A stretch of DNA of 29,408 nt from a virus. Below the pieces are notes generated by a model. It ran no database searches. It had not been told where the DNA came from and saw only the letters and a list, made by a program, of their open reading frames with translations. The stretch covers positions 1 through 29,408 of the IMG/VR virus record IMGVR_UViG_3300023184_000402; one strand, written 5' to 3'. Below are positions 3,292-25,163 of the stretch, one piece after another. Position numbers and translations under genes: made by a program. Position 1 is the first letter of the stretch. The number at the start of each line of letters is the position of its first letter.

Positions 3292-6200
3292 TATACAAAA
3301 TATAAATCCAGATAATCTTCAATTACAGAATTATAATATTGAAGATGAATCACTTATAACTAATTATATTCAACAGGATATAATTTTTAATCCATTTGAG
3401 GATTATGTTGAGTATTTTATTTTAGATTTAAACAATAATATTTTATTTAAAAATGAAGCTGGATATCCTAATTATAAACTTAGAGATAATTTAATTACAA
3501 TTGATCCTCAAAAAGATTTAGAATTACACGGTTATACTGAAGGTCAATATTATACAATATATAATTTTTTAAAAAGAAAACTTTCTTCATCAGTAGGTAG
3601 TACTTTTTATATTCAAGATATTAGTTCTGATAGAACTGAATTAAGATTAAATACTACTACAATTAATAATACTGATGTTACAGATTTAACAACCCAATTT
3701 GCTAATCAAATATCTTTAGCTACTGGATCATATTTAGATTTTTATTTAAATTTTGGGAATAATCAATTAATAATAGCTAACAACATAGCTTTAGATAATA
3801 CCAACATTGGTGATCCAACAGTTTTAATTAAATTATACGAACCCTTACCCCAAAACTTTACATTTAATTCTCAATGTTGGATTGTAGAACAAGTAGCAGA
3901 ATCTAAAACTTATCAAATTGAATTAACAACAGTTTTTAATGTTGAAGAACAATTAGATTATATTAGTGGCCCTAATTTTAATCTTGATATTCAAGATCAA
4001 ATCAATAATTCTACTCCTTATTATAATCAAAACACTTTAAACTTAAATAATTCCGGTTTAGGATCAGGAAGTTTATTATATCAAATTAATAGTCTTTTAG
4101 TAGAAAAAGGAATTGAAATTAATATTGATTATTCTGATTACTCTCAATTTATAAATTTTTCTTCAGCTCAAACTCGTTTAGAAAATTTTTATTATAAATT
4201 ATCATTAATTGAACAATATTCTATTAATGCAGGATATTCTAACGGGCCTTTACCTCTTAATACTTTTACATCAGGGAGTCAATTTATTTGGCAAAATAAA
4301 ATAAATGATATCATAACTAATTTTGATGGTTATGAATATTATTTATATTATGAATCTGGAAGTTATGCTTGGCCTAAATCCAATTCACTTCCTCCATACA
4401 ATAATCTTTCTACAACAAATCCCATAGCTTTAACTTGGTTAAATACACAGTTATCTATAGCTGAAAACTTTGATTCTGAAAATAATAATTCTTTAATTAG
4501 AACTATTCCTGAATATTTAAAAGAAGACGATAATAATAGTCAATATTTTTTGTTTACTCAAATGTTAGGTCAACATTTTGACAATATTTGGATTTACTTA
4601 AAGGATATTACTAATAAATTTGATGCAGACAACAGATTAAATTATGGTATTTCTAAAGATATAGTTGCACAAGCAATTCGTGATTTAGGAGTTAAAATAT
4701 ACCAAAATAATTTCTCATCAAACGATTTATATTCTGCTTTATTAGGTATAACTCCCTCAGGAAGTTTATTTAATGTTCCTAATATTACAAGTGCATTACC
4801 TACTCCTACAGGTTTAGAATATGTCAATACTTACATTTCAGCTTCTGCTCCTGAATCTTTAGAACCAGTAGATGATATTAATAAAGAAACTTATAAAAAA
4901 ATATACCATAATTTACCTTTATTATTAAAGAAAAAAGGTACAGCAGAAGGATTAAGACTATTAATTAATACTTATGGTATTCCTGATACAATTTTACGTA
5001 TAAATGAATTTGGAGGCAAATCAAACCAACTTCAAGCATGGGACAATTTTGTTGATCAATTTAATTATGCATTAAATCTTAATAGCCAAGGATATTTTTA
5101 TACTTCTTACGACGCATTCGGTGTATCACCATATAATCTTACCCCAGATACAATATTTTTTAGATTTAAACCTGCTCCACCACTTTCACCAACCTCAAAT
5201 TTTTCTCAAGTTTTATTTACTACTCCAAATACGACTCCATCCAATATAGTATCAATAATACTAACATATTCAGGTTCAAATAGTGGATCATATTCTGGTT
5301 CTATTGCTCCTTTAGATAATATATATGGAACTTTATCATTTTATAATTATAATGGAGTATGGAATTCATGTTCTATATCTTTACCATTTTTTAATGGAGA
5401 TTGGTGGTCAGTAGCACTAACTACAGATTCTAATCTTACTAATTATTTATACACGGCAAATAATCCATATAATGGATATGATGGTAGCCAAATAGGATTT
5501 TTTGCATCATCTTCTGAATCCTCAGTTAGTTGGAAAGCAAACTTAAATTACGGAAATTTGTTATATCTTTCAACAGATCAGGGAGTAGCAATTATTGATA
5601 GTATAACTTGTTTACCTTATTCAGGTGCATTTCAAGAATTTAGATTATATAATTCTTACCAATCTATTAATCCAGAAAGATTTAAAGACTATGTAATGAA
5701 TCCATATTCAATAGAAGGACTTACATTAACTGGATCATTTTCATCTTTTAATACTTTATATTTTAGAGCTCCATTAGGAGCAGATTTAAATACTACTCCA
5801 GGTATTCTTACCCCTATTTCTATCCACCCAGCAATATCACAGTATCCTCCTACTCAATCTTTTTATAATGGAGGATCTCCAAATAGCTTATATGGAGTAT
5901 CATATACTACAGGAGAAGGATTCTTTCCTAATACAGAAGTAATTTATCAAGATCAATTTGATGCAGGAGTTAAAAATTCAGTAGCAGAAAAAATAAGAAT
6001 AGTAAATACTACAGTACCACCAGGTGATACATTATCGCCATATATTTCAATCCAACAACATTCTTATACAGGTGAAAATTTTACCAAAGATGTAAATTAT
6101 GTTGAAGCAGCATTTTCGCCACAAGATGAAATTAACGATGATATTATAGCTCAGCTTGGCTCATTCAATGTAGGTAATTATATTGGTGATCCTAGAGATA

Positions 6201-15271: not shown

Positions 15272-15931
15272 ATGAAATTTAAATATAGATTAATAGAAAA
15301 TGACGGTGAAGAAAGCGGATTAAAAAGTTTTAGAGGTAAAAACGCATTGTTTTTAACTGGTGAAAAAGGATTAACTGCTGATGAACTTAAAAAAATTATA
15401 AACGATCCTAAAAATTTAGAAGGTACTTTTGCCAAATACAGTGGTGGATTAAAAGAACTTAAATTAAACGTATTTGGTGATAGACCAAATATTAGAGCTA
15501 CTTTAAAAACAAATATTGAAATATATAACAATAATGGTAAATCTTTTTACACTGAAATAGAAACTACAACAGGTAAAAAATTTGATAAAAAAGGAGCTAT
15601 TATTAAAAAAGAAAAAGTAAAAGGAGAAGAAATAGAAAAAACACTATTTGTTTTTCCACAAAAGAATATACACAACGAAGAAATAGTTGAGGAATATTAT
15701 AAGATAACAAACAATGAAGACGAGAAATTTAAAAAATCTAGTCTTAAACCTACCACAGTAGACGATCATACGCTTAAGTTTCATGTAGGAGATGAAGCTT
15801 TTCTTAAAAAAATATTAACAAAATCTGGTTTACCTAAAGAAAAATATACTTTAAAAATAGAAAAAGACGATTTAGAAGAAAATTTAAAAAAATTAGTAAA
15901 AGAAGAAATTCTTAAATTTTATAAAAAGTAA
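15272..15931 (+). CDS. Lys/Glu-rich hypothetical phage protein
   Basis: 219 aa, not recognised. It starts two bases after the metallopeptidase stop with only AACT ahead of the ATG. The N-terminus MKFKYRLIEND contains L-I-E at residues 7-9, a very short version of the (L/I)-x-E motif found at the start of several neighbours. The rest is strongly charged, with beta segments (ELKLNVFGDRPNIRATLKTN) and a helical C-terminus (ENLKKLVKEEILKFYKK) whose final part resembles the tag helices of neighbouring proteins. No catalytic motif is evident. Clustering with the metallopeptidase suggests shared expression and perhaps a partner role, which is inference. Confidence 0.5.
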   Translation: MKFKYRLIENDGEESGLKSFRGKNALFLTGEKGLTADELKKIINDPKNLEGTFAKYSGGLKELKLNVFGDRPNIRATLKTNIEIYNNNGKSFYTEIETTTGKKFDKKGAIIKKEKVKGEEIEKTLFVFPQKNIHNEEIVEEYYKITNNEDEKFKKSSLKPTTVDDHTLKFHVGDEAFLKKILTKSGLPKEKYTLKIEKDDLEENLKKLVKEEILKFYKK

Positions 15932-18218: not shown

Positions 18219-18668
18219 ATGAAACCTACTCCACGCGTACTAGCATTACAAAAACAATTTTTTAACCAATACAAGCGAAATAAAAGATCTTGGGTTGAAA
18301 AATATGGTGCGGATGCTGAAAAAGTAATGACAGGAGCAGCATTTAAAAGAGCCGAATCCGCAGCTATGAAAGAAAATAAACAACGAATTAAAGAGATGAT
18401 TAAAACGGCCTTAATGGGGCCTATTAAAGAGGAAGAAATCGACTCAAAAGCATTTATTCAATCTCGTAAATCAAAAGAAAATCCTGAAGATGTAATTAAA
18501 ATGGATGTTCCATTATTAATTCGTATGTTAGAATATGCTAGAGAAGATGCTAAAACGGATATGGACCTACATAAAGTAGCTGAAAACCTTATTCAATTAT
18601 CTAAAGAAGGCAAAACTTTAGACATGAGTGATTATAATAGTATAGTAGAACCAGATACAGAAGCATAA
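18219..18668 (+). CDS. Small basic/helical conserved phage protein
   Basis: 149 aa. The N-terminal half is Lys/Arg-rich and helical (QKQFFNQYKRNKRSWVEKYG, ENKQRIKEMIKTALMGPIKE), with an I-K-E site at about residue 70. The second half holds a helical domain VPLLIRMLEYAREDAKTDMD, then LHKVAENLIQLSKEGKTLDM, a pattern I associate with uncharacterised proteins of T4-related environmental phages. No enzymatic motif. It starts 2 bases after the preceding stop, and its own stop shares one base with the next start (TAATG). The charge pattern fits a nucleic-acid- or scaffold-binding protein, which is inference. Confidence 0.5.
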   Translation: MKPTPRVLALQKQFFNQYKRNKRSWVEKYGADAEKVMTGAAFKRAESAAMKENKQRIKEMIKTALMGPIKEEEIDSKAFIQSRKSKENPEDVIKMDVPLLIRMLEYAREDAKTDMDLHKVAENLIQLSKEGKTLDMSDYNSIVEPDTEA

Positions 18669-19192: not shown

Positions 19193-20329
19193 ATGGCTAA
19201 TGAATTAAAAACATATGGTGATTTAAAAAAAGCTATTCAACTTATTACTTTAAAGCAAAAAGTAAAAAACATAGCTGGAGGAGCAGGTGATGTTGCGATA
19301 GAAGCAGCAATTGATGCTGCTAAAACATTTATTCCTGGTATAGGAACTGCTAAAACAACATTTGATTTCATAAAAGCAGCAATATCTAAACCAGATACTA
19401 AAAAAACAAAAACTTGGTTAGATAAATTAGATATAGATGATGATATGTCTAAAATTATTGATAATACTGTTGAAAATGGATTTATGCAAATGATATCTAA
19501 AACTATAGAAGGAGAGTCTGATTCTAAACCTTTAGAACAAGATTTTAATATGAATCAAAAATTAGTTAATTATTTAAAACAAAACTATAAAGGACGTACC
19601 GTAACTGGTATACAAGAAAATAAAGAAAATAAAATGAAAAAATCACAATTAAGACAACTTATTAGAGAAGAAATCAAAACAGCTATTAATGAAAATGTCC
19701 CTGCTTTACGAATTTTTAATCGAACAAGTGAAGAAGGTAACCCTCAAATAGTCATTACTGCTACAACCCCAGGTTGGAGTGATGATAAAGAAATAATTTT
19801 ATCTAAAGAAGAAGCTACAGAATTACAAAAATTAGCCAAAAAGTTTCTTGGTAATAGAAATAGTTCTATATCAACAGCAGTAAATACTAAAGATAAAAAT
19901 TTTACCCAAAGTACTATAAGTATACAGCCTTTAAAAGATATGAAATGCGCTATTGCTAGACAAGAAGGATCTGTTTATAAGGGATATGATGAATCATCAG
20001 GTAGTGCTACAGGATATTGTGTAGTATTTCAAAGTAATATATATCAATTGAGTGATGATCTTGATAAATATCTAACAGAAATAGAAACACCACAAAATAC
20101 AACAGCCCCAGCTGTTAAACAAACAGCAGCATCAACTGCTTATCAAAAAACTGCTCAAAAAGCTACAACAGTAACTTCAAAAGCATCTCAGATTAAAAGT
20201 ATAAATGATTTACCTGGAGCATTTCAAACCTGGTTTGATTCATTAGGACTTAAAGATAAATCAGGAGTTAATCAAACGGCTATTATATCTAAAATAAAAG
20301 ATACTTTAACAAAGATGGGTATAAAATAA
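19193..20329 (+). CDS. Probable two-part fusion: conserved N-domain plus tag-bearing C-domain
   Basis: 378 aa. Residues 1-147 contain a Gly/Ala-rich, weakly hydrophobic segment (AGGAGDVAIEAAIDAAKTFI, PGIGTAKTTFDFIKAAIS) and an acidic helical part (TWLDKLDIDDDMSKIIDNTV, then DFNMNQKLVNYLKQNYKGRT), resembling a stand-alone uncharacterised protein of T4-like phages that ends at this point. At codon 148 (base 19634) an in-frame Met begins MKKSQLRQLIREEIKTAINE, a textbook N-terminal tag for this locus, followed by an unrelated about 210-residue region (RIFNRTSEEGNPQIVITATT, Thr/Ala linker about residues 300-325, C-terminal helix). Either two ancestral genes fused, or translation also starts internally at 19634. 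No Shine-Dalgarno is present, but none is used elsewhere. Function unknown. Confidence 0.55.
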   Translation: MANELKTYGDLKKAIQLITLKQKVKNIAGGAGDVAIEAAIDAAKTFIPGIGTAKTTFDFIKAAISKPDTKKTKTWLDKLDIDDDMSKIIDNTVENGFMQMISKTIEGESDSKPLEQDFNMNQKLVNYLKQNYKGRTVTGIQENKENKMKKSQLRQLIREEIKTAINENVPALRIFNRTSEEGNPQIVITATTPGWSDDKEIILSKEEATELQKLAKKFLGNRNSSISTAVNTKDKNFTQSTISIQPLKDMKCAIARQEGSVYKGYDESSGSATGYCVVFQSNIYQLSDDLDKYLTEIETPQNTTAPAVKQTAASTAYQKTAQKATTVTSKASQIKSINDLPGAFQTWFDSLGLKDKSGVNQTAIISKIKDTLTKMGIK

Positions 20330-21255
20330 TGGATTCACTAGATAAGTTTTTTAAAAAATACGCATATAAATTCCCTAAAGGATATCCTGACTTAACTAAT
20401 GAGCAGGATATCAATCTTTTAGCTGATTTATTAGAAAATATGGAAATAGATTTAGAAGAAAAATTAAAAAAAAAGTTAGAATCTAAAGGTCTCGAATCAG
20501 GATGGGCAGAATATGTAGATTTATACGCTTCAAAATTCAAATCAGATGAAAATTTATTTAATTATTTAAATTCTAATAAATTATTATCTTTTAAAAATTT
20601 AGGAAAATCTGGAAATTTATTTAATATCATAAAAACTAACACTAATAATTTTGATGATGTTTTTATTAAGAAAATAATAGATTATACTCCTGATTTTCAA
20701 AATAGAAAATTAGGTAAAGGAGAAATAGCATTAGCTGTGTTTTTTAATGCAATTAAAAAAGGAAAAGGAGATATAGAAATAGATAATAAAGAATTAATTG
20801 AAATTAAAGGAAACGGTAGTAGATTCTCAACAGAAGAAGGACCAGCCTCAGGAAGATCAGGTTATATAAAAACATATTTTGATAATATTAAAAAAAAATT
20901 TCCTCAAGCTCCTGAAAGTACAAATTTAAAAATATATATACAAAATATATTCAATTCATATTCTGATTCTATTTTAGAAATAGAAGAATATTTTAATAAA
21001 ATATTAAATGAGATTTATCCTTCATCAAAATCTATAGAAATTACTAAAGAAAACTTAAATCAAAATTCTTTATTAGTAAAATACGTAGCTAATTATATTA
21101 ATTATAACTTAGAAAATACACATTACATGTTATTAGATAATAATTATAATTATACAATCTACACTCCTAGTGAACTTTTAGACGAAGTAGAAACAGGTAA
21201 TATCAAAATAGGAAACATAACTCCTAGTAGTGCCTACCCACAAATTGTTTTATAA
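20329..21255 (+). CDS. Putative PD-(D/E)XK nuclease-like protein
   Basis: 308 aa, start overlapping the previous stop by one base. Residues 129-166 carry a nuclease-like signature: GKGEIALAVFF with E132, then GKGDIEID with D148, then ELIEIKGNGSRF with E158-x-K160. This E...D...ExK order with short strands matches the PD-(D/E)XK restriction-endonuclease-like core, and 'GDIxIxxxxxExKgxGxR' is a form I associate with phage-encoded nuclease-like proteins. The flanks are helical: an N-terminal 125-residue Lys/Asp-rich region and a C-terminal region rich in Asn and Tyr. No tag-like N-terminus is visible (MDSLDKFFKKYAYKFPKG). If catalytic, it could cut host or competitor DNA, or process phage DNA. 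Activity is inferred only from the motif. Confidence 0.55.
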   Translation: MDSLDKFFKKYAYKFPKGYPDLTNEQDINLLADLLENMEIDLEEKLKKKLESKGLESGWAEYVDLYASKFKSDENLFNYLNSNKLLSFKNLGKSGNLFNIIKTNTNNFDDVFIKKIIDYTPDFQNRKLGKGEIALAVFFNAIKKGKGDIEIDNKELIEIKGNGSRFSTEEGPASGRSGYIKTYFDNIKKKFPQAPESTNLKIYIQNIFNSYSDSILEIEEYFNKILNEIYPSSKSIEITKENLNQNSLLVKYVANYINYNLENTHYMLLDNNYNYTIYTPSELLDEVETGNIKIGNITPSSAYPQIVL

Positions 21256-22567: not shown

Positions 22568-23037
22568 TGCAACTATCAGAACACTTAAACCTTTCAGAAG
22601 TTACAAAATCAGATACCGCTAAAAGATTAGGTATCGATAACAATCCAACTCCAGAACATTTAGCTAATTTAAAATTATTAGCAGAAAACATTTTTGAACC
22701 AATTCGTAAACATTTTGGTAAACCAATATTTTTATCATCAGGTTATCGTTCAAAAGCATTAAATGTTGCTGTTCCTGGTTCATCACTCACATCACAACAT
22801 TGTTCAGGTGAAGCATTAGATCTTGATCAGGACGATAAACAAACTGGTGTAACTAACGTTATGGTATTTAGTTATATTAAAGATCATATAAATTTTGATC
22901 AATTAATTTGGGAATTTGGTACAGACAAAAATCCAGATTGGGTACATGTTTCTTGGTCTCATACTGGAAAACAAAGAAAACAAATTTTAAAAGCTACAAG
23001 AGTAAACGGTAAACCAGTTTATTCACCCTGGAAATGA
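22567..23037 (+). CDS. Peptidase M15 family (D,D-/L,D-carboxypeptidase-like), candidate endolysin
   Basis: 156 aa. It shows the full M15A metal site: S-x-H-x-x-G-x-A-x-D at residues 76-85 (SQHCSGEALD; H78 and D85 bind zinc), catalytic E116 (QLIWEFG) and a third ligand H127 (DWVHVSW). The upstream LSSGYRSKALN (57-65) is the conserved YRS loop. The family cleaves peptidoglycan peptide cross-links, and short phage members are endolysins or virion lysins. There is no signal peptide or cell-wall binding domain, so export would need a holin, such as the candidate at 26591. The length equals that of a minimal catalytic domain. It starts in a TAATG overlap and ends in an ATGA overlap with the HAD gene. 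Confidence 0.85.
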   Translation: MQLSEHLNLSEVTKSDTAKRLGIDNNPTPEHLANLKLLAENIFEPIRKHFGKPIFLSSGYRSKALNVAVPGSSLTSQHCSGEALDLDQDDKQTGVTNVMVFSYIKDHINFDQLIWEFGTDKNPDWVHVSWSHTGKQRKQILKATRVNGKPVYSPWK

Positions 23038-23570
23038 TTAAGTTAATAGACATATTAAACGAAGTTAAAGGTAGAAAAATACTTCATATATATGACTTTG
23101 ATGATACCTTAGTCAAAACAAATACCTCAGTTGGTATTATAGATGCTGAAGGAAATAAACAAGTTCTTTCAAGTCATGAATTTGCATTATATAAACTCAA
23201 ACCAGGAGAAAAATATGATTTTTCTGAGTTTGATGCTATGATTAGAGGTTCACAACCTATTTTAAAAAATATTAAAGCTATTTCTCAATCTTTAAATGAT
23301 CCTAGTATTAAAACAACCGTTTTAACTGCTCGTAGATTAGCTTTTCCTGTTATGAAGCATTTACGAGACAAATATGGAGTAAATGTTTATGTAGTAGGAG
23401 TAGCAGGATCAAATCCAGAATTAAAAGCAGATTGGATAGAAAATCAAGTTCAAAAAGGATATAAAACTATCAAGTTTGTAGATGATTCTCAAAAAAATTT
23501 AGATGCAGTAGAAAAAAGATTAGAAAAATATCCTGATATAGATTTAACCTTAATTAATCCTCTTAAATGA
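23034..23570 (+). CDS. HAD-superfamily phosphatase
   Basis: 178 aa. Motif I is YDFDDTLVKT with nucleophile D21 and D23; motif II is TTVLTAR with T98; the acidic motif IV is KFVDDSQKNLDAV with D150/D151. A Lys in between (K131 or K144) can be motif III. The layout resembles phosphatase domains acting on polynucleotide 3' ends or small phosphoesters, such as T4 Pnkp-type HADs, but no kinase domain is attached and the substrate is unknown. The N-terminus MIKLIDILNE|VKGRK is nearly identical to that of the next gene (MIKLIDTLKQLLKE) and to the gene at 27407, so it may be a packaging or targeting peptide. Both junctions are ATGA overlaps, indicating coupled expression with the M15 peptidase and the following protein. 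Confidence 0.8.
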   Translation: MIKLIDILNEVKGRKILHIYDFDDTLVKTNTSVGIIDAEGNKQVLSSHEFALYKLKPGEKYDFSEFDAMIRGSQPILKNIKAISQSLNDPSIKTTVLTARRLAFPVMKHLRDKYGVNVYVVGVAGSNPELKADWIENQVQKGYKTIKFVDDSQKNLDAVEKRLEKYPDIDLTLINPLK

Positions 23571-23962
23571 TTAAATTAATCGACACATTAAAGCAACTTC
23601 TAAAAGAGGATCGCTGTAAACGTATTGCTGATCGCAAATACGATAAGCCATCTGCTTACAAATCAGGTGCTATTGTACGTTGTCGTAAAGGTAATATCTG
23701 GAAAGGATTAAAAGAGGAAGAATTAAAAGAAATCATCAAAGAAATCATTCAAGAAGATGAATCACTTCGTAAATGGTTCAAACGTCAAGGCGCCCCAGGT
23801 AAAGAAGGTGGATGGGTAGATTGCAATACCTGCCGAGACGGTAAATGTAAATCGTGTGGTAGAAAAAAAGGTGAAAAACGCGCTAAATATCCTTCATGTC
23901 GTCCTACACCTGCTCAATGTAAATCGCCTGGTAAAGGTAAAAAATGGGGAAAAACAAAATGA
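23567..23962 (+). CDS. Tagged small Cys/Lys-rich protein (DUF5872-like)
   Basis: 131 aa, highly basic. The N-terminus MIKLIDTLKQLLKE|D ends in L-K-E and is followed by a first small motif, CKRIADRKYDKPSAYKSGAI then VRCRKGNIWKG (residues about 17-48). A helix follows (ELKEIIKEIIQEDESLRKWF), then a Cys-rich module WVDCNTCRDGKCKSCGRKKG with KYPSCRPTPAQC (residues about 84-120), which I recognise as DUF5872-like ('LRKWF...GGWxxC...CGR...KRPxCRP'). These modules occur in phages and large DNA viruses without known function; the Cys and basic residues suggest metal and nucleic-acid binding. ATGA overlap with the HAD gene upstream and with the next gene, using the start at 23959. Confidence 0.65.
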   Translation: MIKLIDTLKQLLKEDRCKRIADRKYDKPSAYKSGAIVRCRKGNIWKGLKEEELKEIIKEIIQEDESLRKWFKRQGAPGKEGGWVDCNTCRDGKCKSCGRKKGEKRAKYPSCRPTPAQCKSPGKGKKWGKTK

Positions 23963-24533: not shown

Positions 24534-25163
24534 ATGAAAGCAACTGAATTTAGAACCCTTATTAAAGAATCAATCCAGGAATATATCAAAGAAATTGATG
24601 CAGCTGGTAACAGAGCTGCTTTAGAAGCTAAAATAAAAGCTACTACAGACGCTATTGATAAACGTAAAAAATTAACTAGTAAAGATGGTTTAGACGAAGT
24701 ATACCATGAATTTCTCGATGAGCGAAAGATGAAAGAAATGACATCAGAAATCAAACTTCTTGAAAAATCATTAACTAAGTACGGCAATATGCTTGAAAAG
24801 ATGGACGCTAAAAACGCTCCTAAAATGGAAGAAATAAAAGATGAGGACGTTGGAGAAGAAATAATTGATGAAGTATCAATTGATGAAAATGATCCTGAAG
24901 AAGAGTCATTAGAAGAAGCTAAGAAAAAAATGACTACTACTCAAAAAGAGAAAAAAGAAGATATCGTAAAAGGTATGAAAAAATCTAAAAGCTTTGGTAA
25001 GTCTAAAGAAGAAAAAGGCAAAATGTATGCTACTGCTACTAAATTAGCTATGAAAGAATCAGAAGTATTGAACGAATCATTCTTACATATGCAAAAATTA
25101 GCTGGTTTGATTACTGAAGCAGAATATAAAGCTAAATTAGACAATAATAGCGAAGATAAGTAA
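24534..25163 (+). CDS. Coiled-coil protein with tags at both ends
   Basis: 209 aa, very charged. The N-terminus MKATEFRTLIKESIQEYIKE carries three overlapping (I/L)-x-E sites (I-K-E 10-12, I-Q-E 14-16, I-K-E 18-20). Residues about 20-95 form a long coiled coil (NRAALEAKIKATTDAIDKRK, SEIKLLEKSLTKYGNMLEKM), followed by an acidic linker and a Lys-rich segment (KKEDIVKGMKKSKSFGKSKE). The C-terminus NESFLHMQKLAGLITEAEYK is nearly identical to the N-terminus of the gene at 17170. A strong terminator follows at 25192. The shape (helical, charged, multiple cleavage-like sites) resembles phage head core or internal proteins that are cut during maturation, which is inference. Confidence 0.55.
   Translation: MKATEFRTLIKESIQEYIKEIDAAGNRAALEAKIKATTDAIDKRKKLTSKDGLDEVYHEFLDERKMKEMTSEIKLLEKSLTKYGNMLEKMDAKNAPKMEEIKDEDVGEEIIDEVSIDENDPEEESLEEAKKKMTTTQKEKKEDIVKGMKKSKSFGKSKEEKGKMYATATKLAMKESEVLNESFLHMQKLAGLITEAEYKAKLDNNSEDK

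Follow-up and report, generated by a model that had tools for sequence, protein, structure and literature searches.

A putative capsid-targeting tag buried at an in-frame gene fusion in an uncultured T4-like aquatic phage

We found that the open reading frame at 19193-20329 (+ strand) of the window, which is the whole 29,408-base virus record analysed here and derives from an uncultured T4-like aquatic phage, is, as judged from its relatives, almost certainly a real in-frame gene fusion with its joint at codon 148. The explanation that we favour, with a probability of about 0.6, is that two head-cargo genes were fused, that the peptide at the joint is a capsid-targeting tag, and that a gp21-type protease would cut within it so that two proteins are delivered. 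The frame is open throughout, encodes 378 amino acids and comprises the following features.

19193-20329, + strand: fused gene, 378 amino acids, consisting of N-module, internal tag, PUR-like module, linker and C-module (from the open reading frame and its relatives)
19193-19633, + strand: N-module, residues 1-147, conserved in 46 viral contigs and stand-alone with an N-terminal tag in contig L055
19592-19636, + strand: probably flexible joint leading into the tag, residues 134-148 (pLDDT below 50)
19634-19693, + strand: buried tag MKKSQLRQLIREEIKTAINE, residues 148-167, a predicted helix (17.2 bits with the tag profile; both models)
19667-19669, + strand: Glu159, predicted prohead protease site I-R-E/E, fitting the gp21 motif L/I-x-E (PMC9026906)
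19691-19693, + strand: second candidate cut site, I-N-E/N at Glu167, by its fit to L/I-x-E
19694-20086, + strand: middle module, residues 168-298, predicted PUR-alpha repeat I-II fold (Foldseek, VIA-align, tagged stand-alone gene in L077 and L078)
20090-20191, + strand: low-confidence linker, residues 300-333 (pLDDT below 50 at model residues 153-186)
20162-20326, + strand: C-module, residues ~324-378 (stand-alone genes of 78-88 amino acids in relatives)

A sequence-only reading of this DNA had proposed either a gene fusion or an internal start at codon 148, and had pointed to split versions among relatives as one way to examine the question. Such versions were found for both parts, and they strongly support the fusion. 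A separate gene of 226 amino acids, starting with the tag MKNQLNEIKRMQQLAGLLNE, is present in L069 (the same contig as that of L049) and in L075, and aligns with window residues 143-378 at 44% identity over 237 columns (pairwise E 4e-59). In L030 and L079, an 88-residue gene that joins the start MTKHQLQSLIREVVEEA, to which the buried tag is close, to the C-module sits immediately upstream of the N-module gene; the C-module is encoded by stand-alone genes of 78-88 amino acids in L030, L079, L080 and L083-L086. The middle module is a tagged gene of its own in L077 and L078, and in L077 it directly follows a gene resembling the prohead protease. The part that begins at codon 148 in the window, away from the N-terminus, is N-terminal in its stand-alone relatives. 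Residues 1-147 had likewise been read as a complete protein, and this is supported by L055, which encodes the N-module alone, with the tag MIKLKSILSEILLE in front and nothing downstream.

The cultured Flavobacterium phage immuto (L087, NC_055915.1) provides another split version. Its gp072 (73 amino acids, MKKSQIVKAVQEVLEEMSTTG...) matches, as a gene of its own, the segment downstream of the junction in L023-type relatives (53% over 66 amino acids, E 3e-19; E 5e-10 database-wide), and its start codon corresponds to the junction Met of these relatives. From the split tagged genes and immuto gp072, Met148 of the window is most readily interpreted as a fossil start codon, left from a tagged gene that was once separate.

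The relatives also define the boundary. The N-module is encoded in 46 viral contigs and, at the sensitivity used, was absent from GTDB genomes and from cultured phages; searches of Pfam and PHROGs assigned it to no known family and gave only weak matches for the 378-residue protein. In all relatives it is conserved to about residue 142 (GI-x-E-N-K) and diverges beyond, so that an undivided protein conserved across codons 130-165, the pattern named earlier as speaking against two parts, is not what the relatives show. About ten unrelated sequences follow this one boundary: the window-type C-module (window, L005, L006), the SLVKQNK type (L002/L011, L003/L013), the IWNGMN type (L007, L008, L031, L038), the YGKFKK type, seen in many contigs, whose internal segment resembles immuto gp072, the FENLSPDE type (L044, L050), the KVPL type (L022, L026), the GGVGG type (L047, L048) and, in L046, the neighbouring DKFF gene. 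In L034 a bare tag, ENKMRNRFQKLAGIKKEA, ends the N-module and is followed by a stop. When placed on the N-module tree, the downstream labels require 15 changes, compared with a minimum of 10 and a mean of 19.6 after shuffling, a count that is only indicative as few forks of the tree are well supported.

Two further variants were observed. In L010 (6001-6126, equal to L056 4001-4126) a relative of the fused gene has shrunk to 41 amino acids through an in-frame deletion that seems to span the interval between two stretches coding for ILSK; this may mean that the gene is dispensable, or may reflect an assembly artefact. In L075 (4612-5772) and L080 (4192-5355), a different N-terminal domain, MELSIENKLLQEQLLQEAFLDSVKAYAREKY..., replaces the N-module before the same tag and C-modules.

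An internal start at Met148, yielding a tagged protein of 231 amino acids besides the full-length one, would account for the same Met, and we consider it improbable. The A-rich context upstream of Met148 exceeds that of ~90% of internal Mets and equals that of the gene's own start, and a similar bias is seen at the junction Mets of relatives (median in the top 10%); however, Met120 of the same protein scores equally, and such a context is also what would remain of a start codon no longer in use. Of 44 contigs, 33 retain the Met, but at this position 11 have neither ATG nor one of the alternative starts GTG and TTG. Conservation at the codon level around the junction does not discriminate between an internal start and a fusion, because an AT-rich genome would probably encode ENK as GAA AAT AAA anyway. 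The internal start retains a low probability in view of the precedent of T4 gp21 itself, which has an internal start giving a short form from Met45 (PMC9026906).

Next we examined the peptide that Met148 opens. The in-frame ATG at 19634-19636 begins MKKSQLRQLIREEIKTAINE (core tag MKKSQLRQLIREE). Expectation maximisation (EM) on the N-terminal ~30 residues of 284 non-redundant proteins of the window and related loci, with the fused-gene family excluded, yielded a 12-column profile in which L/I at position 6 and E at position 8 weigh most. Residues 152-163, QLRQLIREEIKT, score 17.2 bits, and the next-best site within the protein scores 7.7 bits. A chance resemblance in an ordinary single protein could be imagined, given the small size of the tags and their many K, E, L and I residues, which are common in this genome; however, none of 5,000 shuffles of the 378-residue protein and about 1 of 54,831 internal segments reach 17.2 bits, which leaves chance with a negligible probability. 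This candidate is refuted by the split relatives.

The suggestion that the buried peptide is of the kind that starts other genes of the window was borne out, with ten other window proteins carrying an N-terminal tag of at least 10 bits. Among the non-redundant proteins 84 of 284 do so, a fraction biased upward because the training loci neighbour the fused-gene family. The motif [LI]xE is present in 62 of the 84 tagged N-termini versus 26.9 ± 3.9 in shuffles, an enrichment that is partly circular because tagged proteins were chosen by a profile already favouring E. Downstream in the window, many genes begin with short peptides rich in K, E, L and I, and in immuto three unrelated proteins, gp094, gp080 and gp095, start with MKKSQLREIIRKEL, MKKSQLRQIIKEAL and MKKSELVKLIKEEL, which nearly match the buried peptide of the window. 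We found no description of these tags in the literature. The tag is mobile, and three other window genes carry it away from the start or at both ends.

18219-18668, + strand: second gene with a buried tag, at residue 52, ENKQRIKEMIKT (14.3 bits)
24534-25163, + strand: gene tagged at both ends, MKATEFRTLIKESIQE at the start and FLHMQKLAGLITE at the C-terminus (12.2 and 17.4 bits)
15272-15931, + strand: gene with a C-terminal tag-like peptide, NLKKLVKEEILKFYKK (11.4 bits)

The gene at 18219-18668 repeats the fusion pattern, since the tag that lies at residue 52 of the window gene stands at the start in L003, where the relative (ORF 4877-5407) has no N-terminal part and begins at the tag MNKVRIKEMVRMAL; the relative in L010 is a shortened version starting with MINEEQKLRIKEM.

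Other tagged genes were noted in the window. A second tag is present at residue 52 of 23567-23962, ELKEIIKEIIQE. At 23034-23570, the tag MIKLIDILNE stands directly before the catalytic domain of a HAD-type phosphatase-like protein (DFDDT motif), which is a candidate for head cargo. The gene that follows the fusion, 20329-21255, starts with another recurring leader, MD-x-DKFF-x-KFAYKFPKGYPDMNNEQD...LL, found on differing bodies in L002, L003, L006, L007, L009 and L046; this leader may represent another, longer type of tag.

Structure prediction suggests what the modules may be. For residues 168-298, Foldseek matched 8cht_B (E 2.4e-4), and VIA-align gave Z 13.1 with an r.m.s.d. of 2.2 over 113 residues for this structure and Z 12.2 for 5fgp_A, which is a complex with DNA, with Whirly proteins next at Z ~6. 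The model (mean pLDDT 66 overall, 73-92 for much of the PUR-like domain) contains the beta-beta-beta-beta-alpha repeats of PUR, the first repeat being modelled with three strands. The module is thus predicted to have the fold of PUR-alpha repeats I-II while differing from these domains in sequence (10-11% identity), and a Pfam search up to E = 1 gave no match to the PUR family profile. This fold suggests a nucleic-acid-binding cargo. The N-module is mostly helical in a low-confidence model (mean pLDDT 55). The same model has pLDDT below 50 at residues 134-148, just before the tag, which is compatible with the disordered stretch proposed to end the first part, although this model is of poor quality as a whole. 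The tag itself is helical in both predicted models.

Precedent for such a tag comes from phage T4, in which a capsid-targeting sequence (CTS) of 10-19 N-terminal residues binds internal proteins to the core (PMC9026906). The gp21 protease removes the CTS after L/I-x-E, and Alt, which has propeptides at both ends, is also cut at its C-terminus (PMC9026906, PMC5694885); the CTS has been proposed as a means to load various proteins (PMC9026906, PMC5694885). The window tag carries I157-R158-E159 and I165-N166-E167, both of which fit L/I-x-E. By analogy, a capsid-targeting function of the tag is quite probable, and cleavage at the tag is somewhat favoured; a cut by a prohead protease after Glu159 is plausible from the motif. 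A tag of this kind, probably cut after Glu159, is preferred because of the CTS and gp21 precedent together with the L/I-x-E frequencies.

Some of the relatives encode such a protease: of 11 related contigs, 5 combine a prohead protease gene of the gp21 type (PF03420) with a capsid gene of the gp23 type (PF07068). The gene order in L069 is terminase, portal, x, C-module gene, N-module gene, x, protease, x, acidic scaffold-like gene and gp23 major capsid gene, with both pieces between the portal and the gp21-type protease. The prohead core genes of T4 lie between portal and protease, and the position of both pieces in L069 matches that place. Relatives of the fused gene lie 14-30 kb from the protease in G001, G003 and G009. 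The 29-kb window fragment holds neither the protease nor the capsid gene; its fused gene follows tail and primase genes, the upstream part reading as tail/baseplate-like, GIY-YIG-like, primase-like and nuclease-like from sequence and immuto gene order.

Alternatively, the fusion may not be cleaved, with the tag serving as a core-binding helix or persisting as a relic linker in a whole multi-domain protein associated with the head or DNA. This is unlikely, though it has evidence on its side: the Met and tag sequences vary among relatives, several of which (L022, L026, L028, L039, L043, L046, L049) score weakly or not at all at the junction, the tag is a predicted helix, and the same in-frame fusion is kept in three independent contigs (window, L005, L006). 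Against it, 34 of 40 relatives have L/I-x-E within the 35 amino acids that follow the N-module, and related contigs encode the gp21-type protease.

Under the preferred reading, with targeting and cleavage, residues 1-147 would formerly have been one prohead protein and residues 148-378 another gene with its own start tag, MKKSQLRQLIREE. As a short amphipathic helix, the tag would bind to the prohead core and thereby bring any protein attached to it into the head; it would act from an internal or C-terminal position as from the N-terminus. Targeting might not depend on the internal tag, since the N-module itself starts with weakly tag-like residues, TYGDLKKAIKSI. Inside the head, the gp21-type protease would cut at L/I-x-E in the tag after Glu159, giving a helical N-module and a PUR-like protein that may bind nucleic acids. 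Because the cut would fall within the tag, one polypeptide would deliver two proteins.

Known systems resemble this arrangement in part. T4 IPI, IPII, IPIII and Alt are likewise unrelated proteins of a T4-type phage bearing short tags that end in L/I-x-E, and a gp21-type protease and gp23 capsid are also encoded in some related contigs. The CTS is N-terminal, with Alt also cut C-terminally, whereas the tags described here also occur internally or at the protein end, are shuffled among modules and are found on about ten window genes. The T4 core proteins gp67 and gp68, from the portal-protease interval, have the same position as the pieces in L069, but the window gene is larger, modular and located after tail and primase genes. 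The capsid-targeting signal of phage P1 DarB and the propeptides of phiKZ and SPN3US are alike in directing head cargo by a peptide, and the phiKZ/SPN3US propeptides resemble the window tag in having several cut sites. The DarB signal (first 30 amino acids) is, however, N-terminal and of another sequence, and the SPN3US propeptides, also N-terminal, are mostly 111-254 amino acids long with the motif AxE.

Tentatively, we propose that this T4-like phage family builds head-cargo polyproteins, in which joined tagged genes would deliver several proteins in a fixed ratio and former start tags would persist as internal, capsid-targeting, protease-cut linkers. Some relatives (L021, L035 and L037) have two internal tags one after the other. 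The tag provides a sequence rule to find head-loaded, probably host-injected proteins of aquatic T4-like phages, including those whose tag is buried or C-terminal and would escape a scan of N-termini. Position-independent capsid targeting is testable in the cultured Flavobacterium phage, which carries nearly the same tag. Our results suggest that the cargo set of these phages evolves by the shuffling and fusion of tagged modules.
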